A stretch of DNA of 43,924 bases. Origin: Draconibacterium sp. Its GTDB lineage: Bacteria; Bacteroidota; Bacteroidia; Bacteroidales; Prolixibacteraceae. The stretch's first letter is position 1. Every line of letters starts with the position of its first letter. This document shows positions 35,669 through 41,338 of the stretch, in pieces. The notes below the pieces were generated by a model that did no database searches, was not told the DNA's origin, and saw only the letters and a program-made list of their open reading frames with translations. The translations under genes were made by a program, and so were the position numbers. Where the stretch lies: assembly GCA_011620585.1 (NCBI GenBank), contig WOYV01000122.1, positions 5,489 through 49,412 of the forward strand, in the 5' to 3' direction.

Positions 35669-36002
35669 TTAGTTATTCAAATATTCCACTTCCATGTGAT
35701 AATCCCAGGTATCGAAATAAAGATTACCTCCCTTCCATTCAAGTTCGCCGCGCTGAAAATCGTAGGGTTAAAGGAAATTCTTTTCGCATCCGGGAAAGCT
35801 TTTCAAGCTGAACGATATAGTTTTTATTCGCCACCGAATCGTTCCGGCTTTTAGCGATTTTCTGTCCCAGCACGAGTTCTACCTGCAACCAATTCCCATC
35901 TGCAATCAACTTATTCATATCCGTTTCAGGGGTATTTCTACAAGAAGCCCCCAAAAGCAACAGGGTTAAAAACAGATTTACCGGGTACACGAATCGTTTC
36001 AT
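35669..36002 (-). pseudogene. frameshifted lipoprotein remnant, possibly from a transglutaminase-type protein
   Basis: ATG 36002 starts an SpII lipoprotein (LLLGASC, C21) that overlaps the regulator stop by ATGA. The intact frame ends after 87 residues at 35739. Removing one base from the GGG run at 35765-35767 restores a frame through GELEWKGGNLYFDTWDYH to TAA 35669-35671, about 110 residues, ending 21 bp before the NlpC start. The middle (KLIADGNW, then LSRMRKEFPLT) recalls the N-terminal helical part of Bacteroidota transglutaminase-like lipoproteins, with the catalytic domain missing. That family link is from memory and weak. A sequencing error at GGG is also possible. Confidence 0.55.
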
Positions 36003-36730
36003 TTTTCGAAAGTGGTATGCAAATATCGTTTGTAAATTTCGTAGGTACGGTCCAAATGTTCGTTCATTGCCTTTGTGGCATCCGTGTGTTTCTGCTTGTT
36101 AATCGCATCAAAAATCAGAAGGTGGCTTTCGTGCGTTACTTCCTTTTCGTCGTCGACACTGGCATAAATAAAATTACGCATCCGGGGAAGCAACGAATAA
36201 ATCGGTTCCATGGTAATCTGCACAATCGGATTGTGTGTTGCCCGCGCGATGAGCAGGTGAAATTTATTGTCCAAATCAGATTCCAACTGAATATTATCCG
36301 GATCGCAGGCCCTGAAAAGTTCGATATTTTCCTGGATATCCGACAGATCGTTCTGGGTGCGTTGGGCAGCAGCCAATCCTGCAATTTGAGGTTCAAACAA
36401 ACGGCGAACTTCAATAATCTGCGGAATCAGATTCTGATCGAACTGCATGTCGTAATACAAGTCCATCGTTTTTATGGCATCATCCACTTTAAACCCGGTG
36501 ACCGTCATTCCGCTACCCTTTGTTATTTCGATCAATCCCCGTGCACTCAGTCTTCGAAGGGCCTCTCTCAATGCAGTCCGGCTAACTCCAAAGGCTCCGC
36601 AAAGTTCGCGTTCGGTAGGCAACTTCGAACCTACCGGCAATTTTTTCTCCCGGATGGCCGCTTCAATCTTTCGTTCGATTTTCTGGCTAAGCGTTAACTT
36701 ACTGCCAATATTCGTAAATAATTCATCCAT
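35999..36730 (-). CDS. FadR-type GntR transcriptional regulator (FCD domain)
   Basis: The 243-residue protein has an N-terminal winged helix-turn-helix at about 10-75 (GSKLPTERELCGAFGVSRTALREALR), the GntR signature. The C-terminal all-helical FCD ligand domain has metal-ligand candidates in DLDNKFHLLI, THESHLLIF and NEHLDRTY. It is the first gene of the operon encoding the NlpC/P60 peptidase and the epimerase. An 18-bp palindrome sits 17 bp before its start codon and overlaps its -7 box, and the same palindrome controls murQ. It probably represses the recycling island and responds to a wall-derived sugar or peptide. Confidence 0.92.
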   Translation of the reverse strand: MDELFTNIGSKLTLSQKIERKIEAAIREKKLPVGSKLPTERELCGAFGVSRTALREALRRLSARGLIEITKGSGMTVTGFKVDDAIKTMDLYYDMQFDQNLIPQIIEVRRLFEPQIAGLAAAQRTQNDLSDIQENIELFRACDPDNIQLESDLDNKFHLLIARATHNPIVQITMEPIYSLLPRMRNFIYASVDDEKEVTHESHLLIFDAINKQKHTDATKAMNEHLDRTYEIYKRYLHTTFEK

Positions 36731-36964: not shown

Positions 36965-36994
36965 TTTGATAATAAATTTTAATGTTTACTTTTG
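36965..36994 (+). promoter_or_regulatory. promoter of the ilv leader and ilvDBN operon
   Basis: TTTG (36965-36968), an 18-bp spacer and TACTTTTG (36987-36994) form a complete Bacteroidota promoter with exact TAnnTTTG. Transcription should begin near 37000, about 17 bases before the leader-peptide ATG. Confidence 0.75.
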
Positions 36995-37016
36995 CTTTCA
37001 AACATAAAACAGACAA

Positions 37017-37082
37017 ATGAAAGTAACTAATAACATTCTGGTCCTCGTCGTTGTCATTCTTGGAAACACTGAGAAAGGCTAG
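37017..37082 (+). CDS. ilv leader peptide (branched-chain amino acid attenuation)
   Basis: A 21-codon frame starts at ATG 37017, about 17 bases after the predicted transcription start, and ends at TAG 37080-37082. Residues 7-15 are ILVLVVVIL: nine consecutive Ile, Leu or Val codons, and residue 3 is also Val. Its last codons form the antiterminator's left arm (37071-37080), so ribosome position decides which hairpin forms. This is the logic of ilv leader peptides in enterobacteria. Starvation would stall the ribosome in the Val/Leu run and leave the left arm free. Completing translation would cover it. Confidence 0.82.
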   Translation: MKVTNNILVLVVVILGNTEKG

Positions 37083-37145
37083 TTTATGTTATAAGTTATT
37101 AAAGATATTTAGCGAGCCTTTCTCAAAACCGGGAAAGGCTTTTTT
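37071..37145 (+). terminator. attenuator: antiterminator and intrinsic terminator before ilvD
   Basis: Arm A (37071-37080, GAGAAAGGCT) can pair perfectly over 10 bp with arm B (37115-37124, AGCCTTTCTC). Arm B can instead pair with arm C (37131-37140, GGGAAAGGCT) over 10 bp with one G-U pair and a 6-base loop, followed directly by a six-T run (37140-37145). A-B is the antiterminator and B-C a strong intrinsic terminator. They exclude each other. A contains the final leader-peptide codons and stop. The ilvD start is 33 bp after the T-run. Confidence 0.85.
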
Positions 37146-37178: not shown

Positions 37179-39008
37179 ATGCAGATTCCATTACGAAGCA
37201 ATACCACCACTCAAGGTCGCCGAATGGCAGGAGCCCGAAGTCTTTGGCGGGCAAACGGGATGAAAGAAGAACATTTTGGGAAACCGCTGATTGCTGTGGT
37301 TAATTCTTTCACACAATTTGTCCCCGGACATGCACATTTACACGATATTGGCCAACACATCAAAGGCCTGATAGAGAAACAAGGTTTTTTTGCCGCCGAG
37401 TTCAATACCATTGCTATCGACGATGGAATTGCCATGGGACACGACGGAATGTTGTATTCGCTCCCCTCGCGCGATGTGATTGCCGACAGTGTAGAATACA
37501 TGTGTAACGCGCACAAGGTGGATGCCATGGTTTGTATCTCGAACTGCGACAAGATCACTCCCGGAATGTTAATGGCGGCCATGCGTTTGAATATTCCGGC
37601 AGTATTTGTTTCAGGCGGGCCGATGGAAGCTGGTGTGGTTGATAAAAAACAACTCGACTTAGTGGATGCGATGGTTATGGCTGCCGATCTGAAAATCAGC
37701 GACGAATACCTGGCCCAGGTCGAAGAAAACGCCTGCCCTACTTGTGGATCCTGCTCGGGAATGTTCACGGCCAATTCAATGAACTGTTTAGCCGAAGCAA
37801 TTGGGTTGGCCCTTCCCGGAAACGGAAGCATCGTAGCGACTCATGCCAACCGCAAGCTGTTGTTTGAAGAAGCAGTTGAAAAAATTATAGCCGCTACCAA
37901 AACATATTATTACGAAGGAAACGATTCGGTACTTCCCCGCAGGGTTGCATCGCGCGATTCGTTTTTAAATGCCATGAAACTGGATATTGCCATGGGAGGC
38001 TCGACCAACACCGTTCTGCATTTACTGGCTATTGCAAACGAAGCAGGTGTTGATTTTACCATGCGCGACATCGATCAGCTTTCGCGGATCACACCCAACC
38101 TTTGTAAAGTGGCGCCAAGTTCGCATTACCACATGCAGGATGTTAACCGTGCCGGTGGAATCCTTGCCATTTTAGGTGAGTTAAACAGGGGTGGCTTAAT
38201 TGAAACAAACGTCACTCGCGTTGATGGAAAAACCCTGGCAGAAGCCATTGCTGATTACGATATTAAAAGCCCGACGGTATCCAACGATGCTATCCGCAAA
38301 TTTAAATCGGCGCCCGGTGGTGGCCGAAACTTAACCATGGGTTCACAAAACAGCACATATAAAGAACTTGACGACGACCGTTCGAAAGGGTGTATCCGCG
38401 ATATCGAACATGCTTATAATAAAGATGGTGGATTGGCCATTTTATTTGGAAACATTGCTAAAAAAGGATGTATTGTAAAAACTGCCGGCGTTGATCCCAC
38501 GATTTACCAGTTTACCGGAGCAGCCAAAGTTTTCGATTCGCAGGATGATGCAGTAAACGGTATTTTGGGCAACTCGGTGCAAAAAGGCGATGTGATCGTG
38601 ATTCGTTACGAAGGGCCAAAAGGAGGCCCGGGAATGCAGGAAATGCTCTATCCTACTTCGTACCTGAAATCGATGCAATTGGATAAATATTGTGCACTGA
38701 TAACCGATGGACGGTTCTCGGGCGGTACCTCGGGTTTATCCATTGGCCATGTTTCGCCGGAAGCGGCAGCAGGCGGCGCCATAGGATTGATCCGTAACAA
38801 CGACAAAATACAAATTGATATCACGGCACGTTCCATCAACCTGGTGATTTCGGAAGAGGAACTGGAAACCCGCCGAAAAGAAGAAGAGGCAAAAGGTCCG
38901 CAAGCCTGGAAACCGGCATCAAGAGAACGGAATATTTCGAAAGCGTTGAAAGCATATGCCAGCCTGGTTTCTTCGGCCGATTTGGGGGCCGTGCGCCTGA
39001 TAGATTAA
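37179..39008 (+). CDS. ilvD: dihydroxy-acid dehydratase
   Basis: The 609-residue protein opens [20 protein letters not shown], as in E. coli-type IlvD. The cluster ligands are C119 and C123 in [12 protein letters not shown], with C186, C189 and C192 in [12 protein letters not shown]. At the position where 2Fe-2S-type enzymes have a further cysteine, this protein reads VPGHAHL as E. coli does, which points to the oxygen-sensitive 4Fe-4S type. It dehydrates dihydroxy acids to the keto-acid precursors of valine and isoleucine. It is the first structural gene after the attenuator; ilvB begins 62 bp downstream. Confidence 0.96.
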
Positions 39009-39070: not shown

Positions 39071-40768
39071 ATGACAGCAAAAAAAGTTACCGGTTCACAG
39101 GCAGTAATCCTTTCTTTGTTAGAGGAAGGAGTGGATACCATTTTTGGATACCCCGGCGGTGCGATAATGCCCGTTTATGATGCCCTGTACGACCACAGCG
39201 AAAACGTAACACACATTTTAACACGCCACGAACAGGGAGCCATTCACGGGGCACAGGGTTTTGCCCGCGTAACCGGAAGACCGGGGGTTTGTTTTGCCAC
39301 ATCCGGCCCAGGCGCCACTAACCTTATGACAGGAATCGCGGATGCCATGATCGATTCAACCCCTTTGGTCTGTATAACCGGTCAGGTGGCTTCTCCCCTG
39401 CTCGGAACCGATGCTTTCCAGGAATCTGATATCGTGGGCATGTCGATCCCGGTGACCAAATGGAATTACCAGGTAACCACTCCTGAAGAAATCCCGGAAG
39501 CCATTGCACAGGCCTTCTATATTGCCAACTCGGGCCGTCCGGGACCGGTGCTGATCGACTTAACCAAAGATGCCCAGTTTGGAGAACTGGACTTTGAGTA
39601 TAAAAAATGTACAAAAATACGTTCGTACCTGCCCGAAATGAGAGTCGATCCGCACCACGTAAAAGCCGCAGCCGAATTAATTGATGCCGCTAAAAAACCA
39701 ATGGTCCTTTTTGGAAACGGAATCATTATCGGTAGGGCTGAAGACGAATTGAAGGAATTTGTCGAAAAAACAGGAATTCCTGCAGCCTGGACAATTCTTG
39801 GCTTGTCAGCTCTCCCCTCCAACCATCCTTTAAATGTGGGAATGCTCGGAATGCACGGAAATTATGGCCCAAACCTGTTGACCAACGAAGCCGATCTGAT
39901 TATTGCTGTTGGAATTCGTTTCGACGACCGTGTAACCGGGAAAGTGAGCGAATATGCGAAACAAGCCAAAATTATTCACATCGAGATCGACCCCTCTGAA
40001 GTAAACAAAATTGTTATGGCAGATGTAGCTGTTATTGGCGACTCGAAGAAAGTGCTGAAAATGCTTACGGATAACGTGAAGCAAAATAATCACGCCGAAT
40101 GGCTGAACGAGTTCAAAAAATGCATGGACATCGAAATCGACAAAGTCATCTCGAAAGATTTGTATCCCGAAAAACCCGGGTTAACCATGGGTGAAGTAAT
40201 TCGCCTGGCTTCGGAAAAAACCAACCACGATGCCATTTTGGTTACCGATGTGGGCCAGCACCAAATGATCGCTCAACGTTATTTCAAATTCAACCGCTCG
40301 CGCAGCAATGTTACCTCCGGTGGACTGGGAACCATGGGTTTTGGTTTGCCGGCAAGTATGGGCGCCCAGTTGGGGGCTCCCGACCGTACCGTAATTGCCG
40401 TAATTGGCGACGGGGGGTTCCAGATGACGATCCAGGAACTGGGAACCATTGCACAAAATAAATTACCTGTAAAAATCATTTTGATGAACAATAATTTCCT
40501 GGGTATGGTGCGTCAGTGGCAACAATTATTTTTTGAAAAACGGTATTCGTTCACCGAACTCCAGAATCCCGATTTTATTATGATTGCAAAAGGTTTTGGC
40601 ATTGACGGTCACAAAGTAAGCCAACGGGAAGATCTGGACAGCAGTGTTGACAAAATGCTGGCACACGACGGGCCTTATCTGCTTGAAGTAACGATTGAGA
40701 AAGAAGATAATGTGTTTCCGATGGTTCCATCCGGAGCATCTGTTTCGGATGTTATGCTCGAACCATAA
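39071..40768 (+). CDS. ilvB: acetolactate synthase, large (catalytic) subunit
   Basis: The 565-residue protein has the three domains of ThDP-dependent synthases. The N-terminal Pyr domain has catalytic E54 in RHEQGA and FGYPGGAIMPVYDAL. The middle domain carries the FAD-binding-like region (VGIRFDDRVTG). The C-terminal PP domain has the ThDP motif GDGGFQMT starting at G446 and ending MNNN. It condenses pyruvate with pyruvate or 2-oxobutyrate. ilvN follows after 27 bp. No signal peptide; cytosolic. Confidence 0.96.
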   Translation: MTAKKVTGSQAVILSLLEEGVDTIFGYPGGAIMPVYDALYDHSENVTHILTRHEQGAIHGAQGFARVTGRPGVCFATSGPGATNLMTGIADAMIDSTPLVCITGQVASPLLGTDAFQESDIVGMSIPVTKWNYQVTTPEEIPEAIAQAFYIANSGRPGPVLIDLTKDAQFGELDFEYKKCTKIRSYLPEMRVDPHHVKAAAELIDAAKKPMVLFGNGIIIGRAEDELKEFVEKTGIPAAWTILGLSALPSNHPLNVGMLGMHGNYGPNLLTNEADLIIAVGIRFDDRVTGKVSEYAKQAKIIHIEIDPSEVNKIVMADVAVIGDSKKVLKMLTDNVKQNNHAEWLNEFKKCMDIEIDKVISKDLYPEKPGLTMGEVIRLASEKTNHDAILVTDVGQHQMIAQRYFKFNRSRSNVTSGGLGTMGFGLPASMGAQLGAPDRTVIAVIGDGGFQMTIQELGTIAQNKLPVKIILMNNNFLGMVRQWQQLFFEKRYSFTELQNPDFIMIAKGFGIDGHKVSQREDLDSSVDKMLAHDGPYLLEVTIEKEDNVFPMVPSGASVSDVMLEP

Positions 40769-40795: not shown

Positions 40796-41338
40796 ATGAG
40801 AAAAGAATATATCATCACCGTATACTCAGAAAACCACATTGGGTTGCTGACCAGAATTACCATTGTTTTCACCCGCCGTAAAATCAACATCGATAGTTTA
40901 ACCGTATCGGAATCGGCTATTCCCGGTATTTACAAATTCACCATTGTGATCCACGAAACCGAAGCTCAAACACAAAAAGTGGTGAGCCAACTCGAGAAAC
41001 TGGTTGACGTAATGAAGGCTTTCTATCATACCAGCGAAGAAATGATTTCCCAGGAAATTGCCTTGTACAAGGTCCCGATCGAACCAATATACGAAAGCGA
41101 TGCTATCGAAAAGATTGTACGTCGTAACAGCGCCCGGATACTTGAAATCACTAAAGATTACGTGGTTATCGAACGAACCGGGCACAAGGAAGAAACACAG
41201 GCCCTGTTCGAAGAACTGAACCAATTCAAGGTAATGCAGTTTATCCGTTCGGGACGCGTAGCCATTACGCGCGATCCGATCGAGCGTTTGTCGGAATTCC
41301 TGAAAGAACGCGACGCATATTTAGACAGCCTGGATTAG
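40796..41338 (+). CDS. ilvN: acetolactate synthase, small (regulatory) subunit
   Basis: The 180-residue protein has an N-terminal ACT domain (about 3-78: ITVYSENHIGLLTRITIVFTRR, including the HIGLL feedback-binding loop). A C-terminal regulatory domain ends KERDAYLDSLD. It binds the large subunit and confers valine inhibition. It is the last gene of the operon; a terminator lies 22 bp downstream. ilvC and leu genes, often in the same operon in other bacteria, are not present here. Confidence 0.93.
   Translation: MRKEYIITVYSENHIGLLTRITIVFTRRKINIDSLTVSESAIPGIYKFTIVIHETEAQTQKVVSQLEKLVDVMKAFYHTSEEMISQEIALYKVPIEPIYESDAIEKIVRRNSARILEITKDYVVIERTGHKEETQALFEELNQFKVMQFIRSGRVAITRDPIERLSEFLKERDAYLDSLD

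Follow-up and report, generated by a model that had tools for sequence, protein, structure and literature searches.

Layout of the ilvDBN leader locus and its recurrence in relatives

The 43,924-nt stretch of Draconibacterium sp. DNA analyzed as a whole (the window) carried ilvD, ilvB, and ilvN in this order on the forward strand, all named by NCBIfam profiles, together with a compact leader region upstream of ilvD (Table 1). This region started with the pair TTTG/TACTTTTG (18-nt spacer), which we take to be of the Bacteroidota promoter type, and the leader ATG followed 22 nt downstream of TACTTTTG. The promoter-like pair and the 21-codon frame with its uninterrupted run of nine Ile/Leu/Val codons (ATT CTG GTC CTC GTC GTT GTC ATT CTT), both put forward in the original prediction, were present as described; a nine-of-nine stretch of branched-chain amino acid (BCAA) codons was unique to the leader among the 619 ATG-started ORFs of 8–45 codons that the two strands of the window contain. 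The leader ORF ended 96 nt before ilvD. Arm A overlapped the last leader codons and reached one base into the stop TAG (37080–37082), so the stop overlapped the 3′ end of arm A, while arm B was drawn on by the terminator as 37114–37124. A gene for a GntR-family regulator lay at 35999–36730 on the reverse strand, divergent from the leader promoter.

Table 1. Features of the leader locus and the downstream genes in the window
Feature	Position	Strand	Basis
Promoter −33-like element TTTG	36965–36968	+	DNA read directly
Promoter −7-like element TACTTTTG	36987–36994	+	DNA read directly
Leader ORF MKVTNNILVLVVVILGNTEKG*, 21 codons	37017–37082	+	ORF read; leaders in relatives
Nine-codon Ile/Leu/Val run, leader codons 7–15	37035–37061	+	DNA; selection on Ile/Leu/Val; codon bias
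Possible protector segment P (uncertain)	37038–37049	+	Predicted pairing with arm A; weak comparative support
Arm A TGAGAAAGGCT, antiterminator 5′ half	37070–37080	+	DNA; pairing; covariation
Arm B AGCCTTTCTCA, common to antiterminator and terminator	37115–37125	+	Pairing; covariation
Arm C GGGAAAGGCTT, terminator hairpin 3′ half	37131–37141	+	Pairing; covariation
T6 tract, intrinsic terminator	37140–37145	+	DNA read directly
ilvD, dihydroxy-acid dehydratase, first gene downstream	37179–39008	+	NF009103, 1049 bits (cut-off 710); TIGR00110, 789 bits (cut-off 618)
ilvB, acetolactate synthase large subunit	39071–40768	+	TIGR00118, 731 bits (cut-off 538)
ilvN, acetolactate synthase small subunit	40796–41338	+	TIGR00119, 103 bits (cut-off 57)

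An IlvD protein search of species genomes, of which the best 80 loci were kept, gave together with the window a set of 81 ilvD loci, and an upstream stretch of 260 or 350 nt was examined for each of them; the nearest named relatives belonged to Maribellus (86–88% IlvD identity). A leader, a terminator, and A:B pairing occurred together in 65 of the 81 loci (63 called by script, minus the doubtful L081, plus L034, L037, and L060 recognized by eye). The 16 loci without a call were as follows: (i) 12 loci in records titled as other phyla (Desulfobulbaceae, Spirochaetaceae, Fibrobacter, etc.), where IlvD was 69–73% identical to that of the window and no leader was found upstream, with only 229 nt of upstream sequence present in L070 and a terminator-like hairpin without a leader in L080; (ii) L038 and L057, whose contigs ended about 115 nt upstream of ilvD with the terminator still visible; (iii) L059, titled Alistipes, with no leader in the 480 nt upstream; and (iv) L081. 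Titles of metagenome bins may be wrong: L032, titled Chitinophaga pinensis, had a leader nearly identical to those of L030 and L036 (titled Prolixibacteraceae or Bacteroidota) and is probably a mislabelled metagenome bin.

The −7 box TA[CT]NTTTG occurred in 40 of 60 loci at a distance of up to 60 nt 5′ of the leader start, compared to 1 of 165 control stretches; the other 20 loci lacked it. A TTG at the matching distance was present in 31 of the 40 relatives' promoters having the −7 box, and the box lay a median of 20.5 nt (range 13–32) from the start codon. From the predicted start site, the leader transcript would have a 5′ untranslated region of about 15 nt. Translation in Bacteroidota initiates largely without Shine-Dalgarno pairing, and presumably none is to be expected at the ilv leader, unlike at enterobacterial attenuators.

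Alternative pairings and ribosome geometry

Arms A and B were complementary at 11 of 11 bases; the perfect pairing originally predicted was thereby confirmed, with its length corrected from 10 to 11 bp. The alternative pairing of arm B with arm C just before the T6 tract was likewise found as predicted, as a hairpin of 11 pairs (−15.6 kcal/mol). The leader RNA (151 nt) had a folding energy of −39 kcal/mol (z = −4.48), which was equalled by none of 200 shuffles.

Enterobacterial attenuators are built from an ORF of cognate codons, an antiterminator arm, and a terminator before the first gene. The window leader had an ORF rich in codons for the end products of its operon, an intrinsic terminator between this ORF and the first gene, and mutually exclusive antiterminator and terminator with one arm in common. 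In the mechanism proposed for it, RNA polymerase would start just 5′ of the leader ORF, trailed by a ribosome. With charged Ile, Leu, and Val tRNA in ample supply, the ribosome would reach the stop and mask arm A, B:C would form, and transcription would stop at the T tract. If any one of the three charged tRNAs were scarce, the ribosome would stall on the nine-codon run with its leading edge ending 5′ of arm A; free arm A would pair with arm B once the latter was made, the terminator would come too late, and ilvDBN would be transcribed. From this arrangement, we infer that the leader is translated, that polymerase and ribosome are suitably timed, that termination takes place near 37145, and that the operon responds to BCAA supply.

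Masked folding was applied to 62 leaders, under the assumption that the ribosome covers 12 nt, counted from where the A-site codon begins, and that all upstream RNA is closed. When the RNA was folded to the end of arm B, the predicted A:B probability exceeded 0.5 in 62/62 leaders with the ribosome on the BCAA codons, in 0/62 with the ribosome at the stop, and in 36/62 without a ribosome; in this model, a ribosome on the control codons thus left arm A free and one at the stop masked it, as ribosome-mediated attenuation would have it. For the full transcript at equilibrium, B:C prevailed over A:B in 62/62 leaders with the ribosome at the stop and in 61/62 without a ribosome, but with a stalled ribosome A:B won in only 13/62 while the terminator won in 49/62. 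Equilibrium folding of the whole leader was rejected as the switch on account of these 49 failures; the switch would therefore have to be kinetic and be decided before arm C is transcribed.

The position of the stop codon varied among the 62 leaders: it lay at or beyond the 3′ end of arm A in 27 of them and at or near the 5′ edge of arm A (within 6 nt either way) in 35. The notion that the stop lies inside the antiterminator thus held in the window for the first base of TAG only and did not extend to the leaders as a group. Arm A followed the last BCAA codon at a median distance of 8 nt (IQR 7–9; range 0–32; negative values were impossible by construction). This spacing between control codons and arm A, and not the stop position, was what the leaders kept, as a mechanism based on the ribosome footprint demands.

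The same leaders could also work with a third, protecting helix, in the manner of the four-segment E. coli trp attenuator: a segment P would pair with arm A, and an untranslated leader would terminate. This elaboration of attenuation is a tentative possibility, which we hold to be less probable than its absence. In the predicted fold of the window, arm A was paired with the first part of the BCAA run, own P:A pairing beat that with swapped P in 47 of 72 comparisons (Wilcoxon p = 0.008, relatedness not corrected), P:A was more stable than synonymous nulls drawn with ilvD codon usage in 49/62 leaders, and the 36/62 leaders reaching A:B above 0.5 with no ribosome and before arm C is made would fit a protected arm A in the rest. 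However, the gain was small when measured against the leaders' own codon pool (40/62, mean rank 0.43), the A:B probability of the window was already 0.97 without a ribosome before arm C is made, and base composition alone makes BCAA codons, which are pyrimidine-rich, pair with a purine-rich arm. The design had been predicted to be a minimal two-hairpin one: the two hairpins were there, but with a protector helix predicted in the window and somewhat favored among the leaders the word minimal may be too strong. In the A-B loop (37083–37113 in the window, and in relatives), a weakly kept motif TATGT...AAAGATATTTA was noticed by eye, and this loop could form a small hairpin in some relatives, a pause site being possible.

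Coupled evolution of the arms and the leader codons

The A:B pairing had a mean energy of −15.7 kcal/mol, compared to −12.3 kcal/mol when partners were exchanged among loci and −7.6 kcal/mol when the A region was shuffled; A:B beat all 50 shuffles in 46 of 63 loci, and the worst locus was matched by 3 of 50. For covariation, 77 segments were cut (63 from the script and 14 by eye), and a sequence-only alignment was made of 54 of them, with 23 near-duplicates or most divergent segments left out. In these 54 segments, A:B formed standard pairs in 92.7% of cases, with both sides changed in 6 of 11 pairs, and B:C was paired in 98.7%, with both sides changed in 6 of 10 pairs; the compensatory changes to be expected of the original prediction were thus found in both helices. 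Pairing dropped to 43–58% (A:B) and 42–72% (B:C) when the partner was slid. None of 500 column shuffles reached the observed number of paired cells or the covariation score for either helix; two of five measures for A:B were not beyond shuffling, the pairs changed on both sides being reached by 11/500 shuffles and the further pair types by 70/500. With fixed columns across all 77 segments, 86.1% (A:B) and 93.5% (B:C) were paired. The clearest change across all three arms was GAAAGG/CCUUUC/GAAAGG versus GAAUGG/CCAUUC/GAAUGG, and two class-level genomes had divergent arms GUGAGGCAC/GUGCCUCA/UGAGGCAC with the same logic. One or two A:B mismatches with B:C still paired were seen in the L025–L037 clade, and A:B was weak in L097 (−9.1 kcal/mol) and L107 (−6.3 kcal/mol). 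A chance origin of the leader architecture was rejected by this comparison, given its recurrence and covariation.

The leader codons were compared within 32 pairs of nearest leaders having the same length. Of 86 single-base differences at Ile/Leu/Val codons, 77 left a codon for Ile, Leu, or Val, with 45.4 expected without selection, and the conservation of BCAA codons anticipated by the original prediction was thereby borne out. Codon choice in the 62 leaders differed from that in ilvD of the same loci: (i) for Val, GTC made up 54% versus 10%; (ii) for Leu, CTC made up 24% versus 9% and CTA 23% versus 4%, while CTG made up 3% versus 25% and TTG 2% versus 20%; and (iii) for Ile, there was hardly any bias (ATT 70% versus 60%). 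Three codons of the window run were GTC, alongside a single CTG and a single GTT. Pairing with arm A could account for part of the Val/Leu bias. Elf and Ehrenberg explained control-codon choice by selective charging, and a leu attenuator blunted by CUG in place of CUA was cited there (PMC1183508).

These data also bear on three readings other than attenuation. The ORF might encode a functional, very hydrophobic micro-peptide with its own start, stop, and intrinsic terminator, with ilv expressed through read-through or a promoter further downstream and with arm A incidental. Against this, arm A coevolved with arm B, Val and Leu codons were biased to rare ones, Ile, Leu, and Val substituted for each other, and short ORFs rich in His, Trp, Leu, and Phe stood before hisG, putative trpE, leuA, and pheA, respectively, in the group (see below), which makes the micro-peptide very improbable. 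A riboswitch, T-box, or protein-bound leader sensing the amino acid directly, with the ORF secondary, would look alike, its 5′ leader being structured and its hairpins mutually exclusive. Such a leader can hardly be credited either: Rfam gave no match at gathering score in the window and eight further loci (including the own-genome his, trp, and leu leaders), the A-B and B-C loops varied in length and sequence among relatives, and the best-kept part outside the arms was the reading frame. An Rfam scan by E-value over 351 bases returned nine weak matches, all to unrelated families, and a known leader family, riboswitch, or T-box was rejected for want of a match at gathering score. Translational coupling or reinitiation on ilvD in place of termination deserves next to no credence: it has been proposed that leader ORFs near genes increase translation by reinitiation (PMC4833913), but the leader here ended 96 nt before ilvD with a strong terminator-like hairpin in between.

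With the coupled evolution, the kept BCAA codons, and the masked folding all in support of the attenuation originally predicted, the ilvDBN leader is very probably a classical ribosome-mediated transcription attenuator; at the level of sequence, this reading draws on the ORF, the alternative pairings and their coupled evolution, the codon class, and the place before BCAA genes.

Distribution, other amino-acid operons, and known systems

In a class-level sample, 32 of 149 genomes had a TIGR00110 match at E ≤ 1e-150, and a leader attenuator was recognized in 10 of 30 class-level ilvD loci (L082–L086, L096, L097, and L106–L108). These 10 included all five TIGR00110-matching genomes of the order to which the window belongs. 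In several of the 20 leader-negative loci, another coding region seemed by eye to reach ilvD. BCAA-rich ORFs with terminators in L099, L104, and L111 were not counted, as they looked like the ends of longer proteins.

A covariance model trained on ilvD leaders only, with rough E-values, matched 60/60 family genomes at E ≤ 0.05 and 91/198 order genomes at E ≤ 0.01. All 38 loci fetched by this model had IlvD, LeuA, or IlvB downstream in tblastn searches with these three proteins as queries (33 IlvD, one weak IlvD, two LeuA, and two IlvB), a figure that is not independent since at least 7 of the 38 were training sequences (L206, L207, L212, L214, L216, L223, and L236). The LeuA and IlvB cases were new, as the training set contained ilvD leaders only. 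The weak IlvD match (33%) lay about 0.9 kb downstream in L235.

The leader detector was run over 78 loci on both strands. Hits inside genes (at least two Trp codons in several loci, and one Ile/Leu/Val hit in L136, reverse strand) were dropped by position and by eye. The candidates before other amino-acid genes were as follows: (i) hisG of the window's own genome was preceded by a candidate His-rich leader MINRLAHHGHHGINQPTGRL with terminator and antiterminator (L122:1179–1297), and a His-rich short ORF stood before 11 of 12 hisG loci in own and related genomes, of which nine were called by script (terminator plus A:B) and two by eye (ORF alone; L113 and L121), with no His-rich ORF found before hisG in L118; (ii) leuA of the own genome had a candidate GTG-started Leu/Ile-rich leader VKLHINISILLGILILLKQG (L191, reverse strand, 2145–2271), whose arms UGAGAAUGG/CCAUUCUCA resembled those of many ilvD leaders, and leaders were found before 12/12 best LeuA_dimer loci and before none of the 12 second leuA copies, the second copy of the own genome sitting inside the operon; and (iii) Phe/Tyr-rich leader ORFs with a terminator preceded pheA in 2 of 12 loci, belonging to two other families of the order (L194:1333–1460 and L205:1331–1471), with no leader before pheA of the own genome. 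No thrA leader was found in the three genomes examined.

The ilv leader is a further instance of a known attenuator class and not a new mechanism. Comparative predictions of leader attenuators were reportedly made in work by Vitreschak (2004), whose abstract is said to name some Bacteroidetes/Chlorobi cases, and by Lopatovskaya (2010). Priority is therefore not claimed. The original prediction held such a leader to be uncharacterized in this phylum: a search of titles, abstract starts, and passages found no description of one in Bacteroidota, while the 2004 paper may contain predictions for it. The Bacteroides thetaiotaomicron transcriptome study mentioned in passing sORFs 'reminiscent of leader peptides' (PMC7366714), and a paper from 2021 on the his genes of Bacteroidota and related phyla contained neither 'leader' nor 'attenuator' and used 'attenuation' once, for enterobacteria (PMC8305728).

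The enterobacterial ilv, leu, his, and trp attenuators, for which the comparison drew on attenuation theory (PMC1183508), were similar to the leader described here in their short cognate-codon ORF with the antiterminator arm just after it, their terminator 5′ of the first gene, and their avoidance of CUG among Leu codons. The leader differed from them in that it came from another phylum, had no Rfam leader-family match, had a possible protector that was only predicted, and started 13–32 nt from the −7 box where this box was found. The ilvBNC/ilvB-II motif of Corynebacterium (PMC11857589, PMC10272879) was similar in its BCAA-rich uORF before an acetohydroxyacid synthase operon and in its competing terminator and antiterminator, whereas the C. 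glutamicum model had three hairpins with an anti-antiterminator, another operon order, and another sequence.

A much broader proposition seems to us evenly balanced between true and false: that leader-peptide attenuation of ilv, leu, his, trp, and phe operons is general and ancient in Bacteroidia, that it operates without Shine-Dalgarno pairing on nearly leaderless mRNAs, and that it has been repeatedly duplicated into tandems of one specificity that would sharpen the response (see below). If true, it would imply tight coupling of polymerase and ribosome in the phylum. The leaders offer concrete sites for measuring transcription-translation coupling in Bacteroidota, for which our search of titles and abstract starts returned no test. 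The bias to GTC, CTC, and CTA and the avoidance of CTG and TTG would provide a test of selective-charging theory (PMC1183508) in a distant lineage.

Units of one specificity in series were found before ilv and trp genes. Two ilv attenuators in series preceded ilvD in L033 (2700–2977), L034 (2700–2975), and L242, and two ilv-type attenuators in series preceded ilvB in L217 and L231. Counted by eye among the matches listed, two same-strand model matches with starts 138–448 nt apart occurred in 13 or more of the 60 family genomes. The chorismate-binding gene that we take to be trpE was preceded by two consecutive Trp-rich ORFs, the first being MKKINTIWLPWWGLLT and the second including NNNWWWHNNFLQHS, in 9 of the 12 best loci (L127–L135), which belong to the own genome and to eight relatives. 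In the own genome (L135:590–880), each candidate leader ORF was followed by a hairpin and a T tract; the first trp unit had a terminator and A:B pairing by script in 6/9 loci, and a hairpin of the second unit was visible by eye in three loci. We know of no tandem transcription attenuators of one amino-acid specificity, and a literature search found none by title or abstract start. Two leader peptides have been described in the translational attenuation of ermB (PMC8274638), and Salmonella mgtCBR has two leader-ORF attenuators in series whose units sense different signals, ATP and proline (PMC3641672). Some ilv and trp loci here likewise have two units in series, but with codons for the same amino acids in both. 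Such same-specificity units in series would serve as natural experiments on sensitivity. In the second leader of L034, the BCAA run was eroded (MKHYSTYHLAVRLVILRRL).
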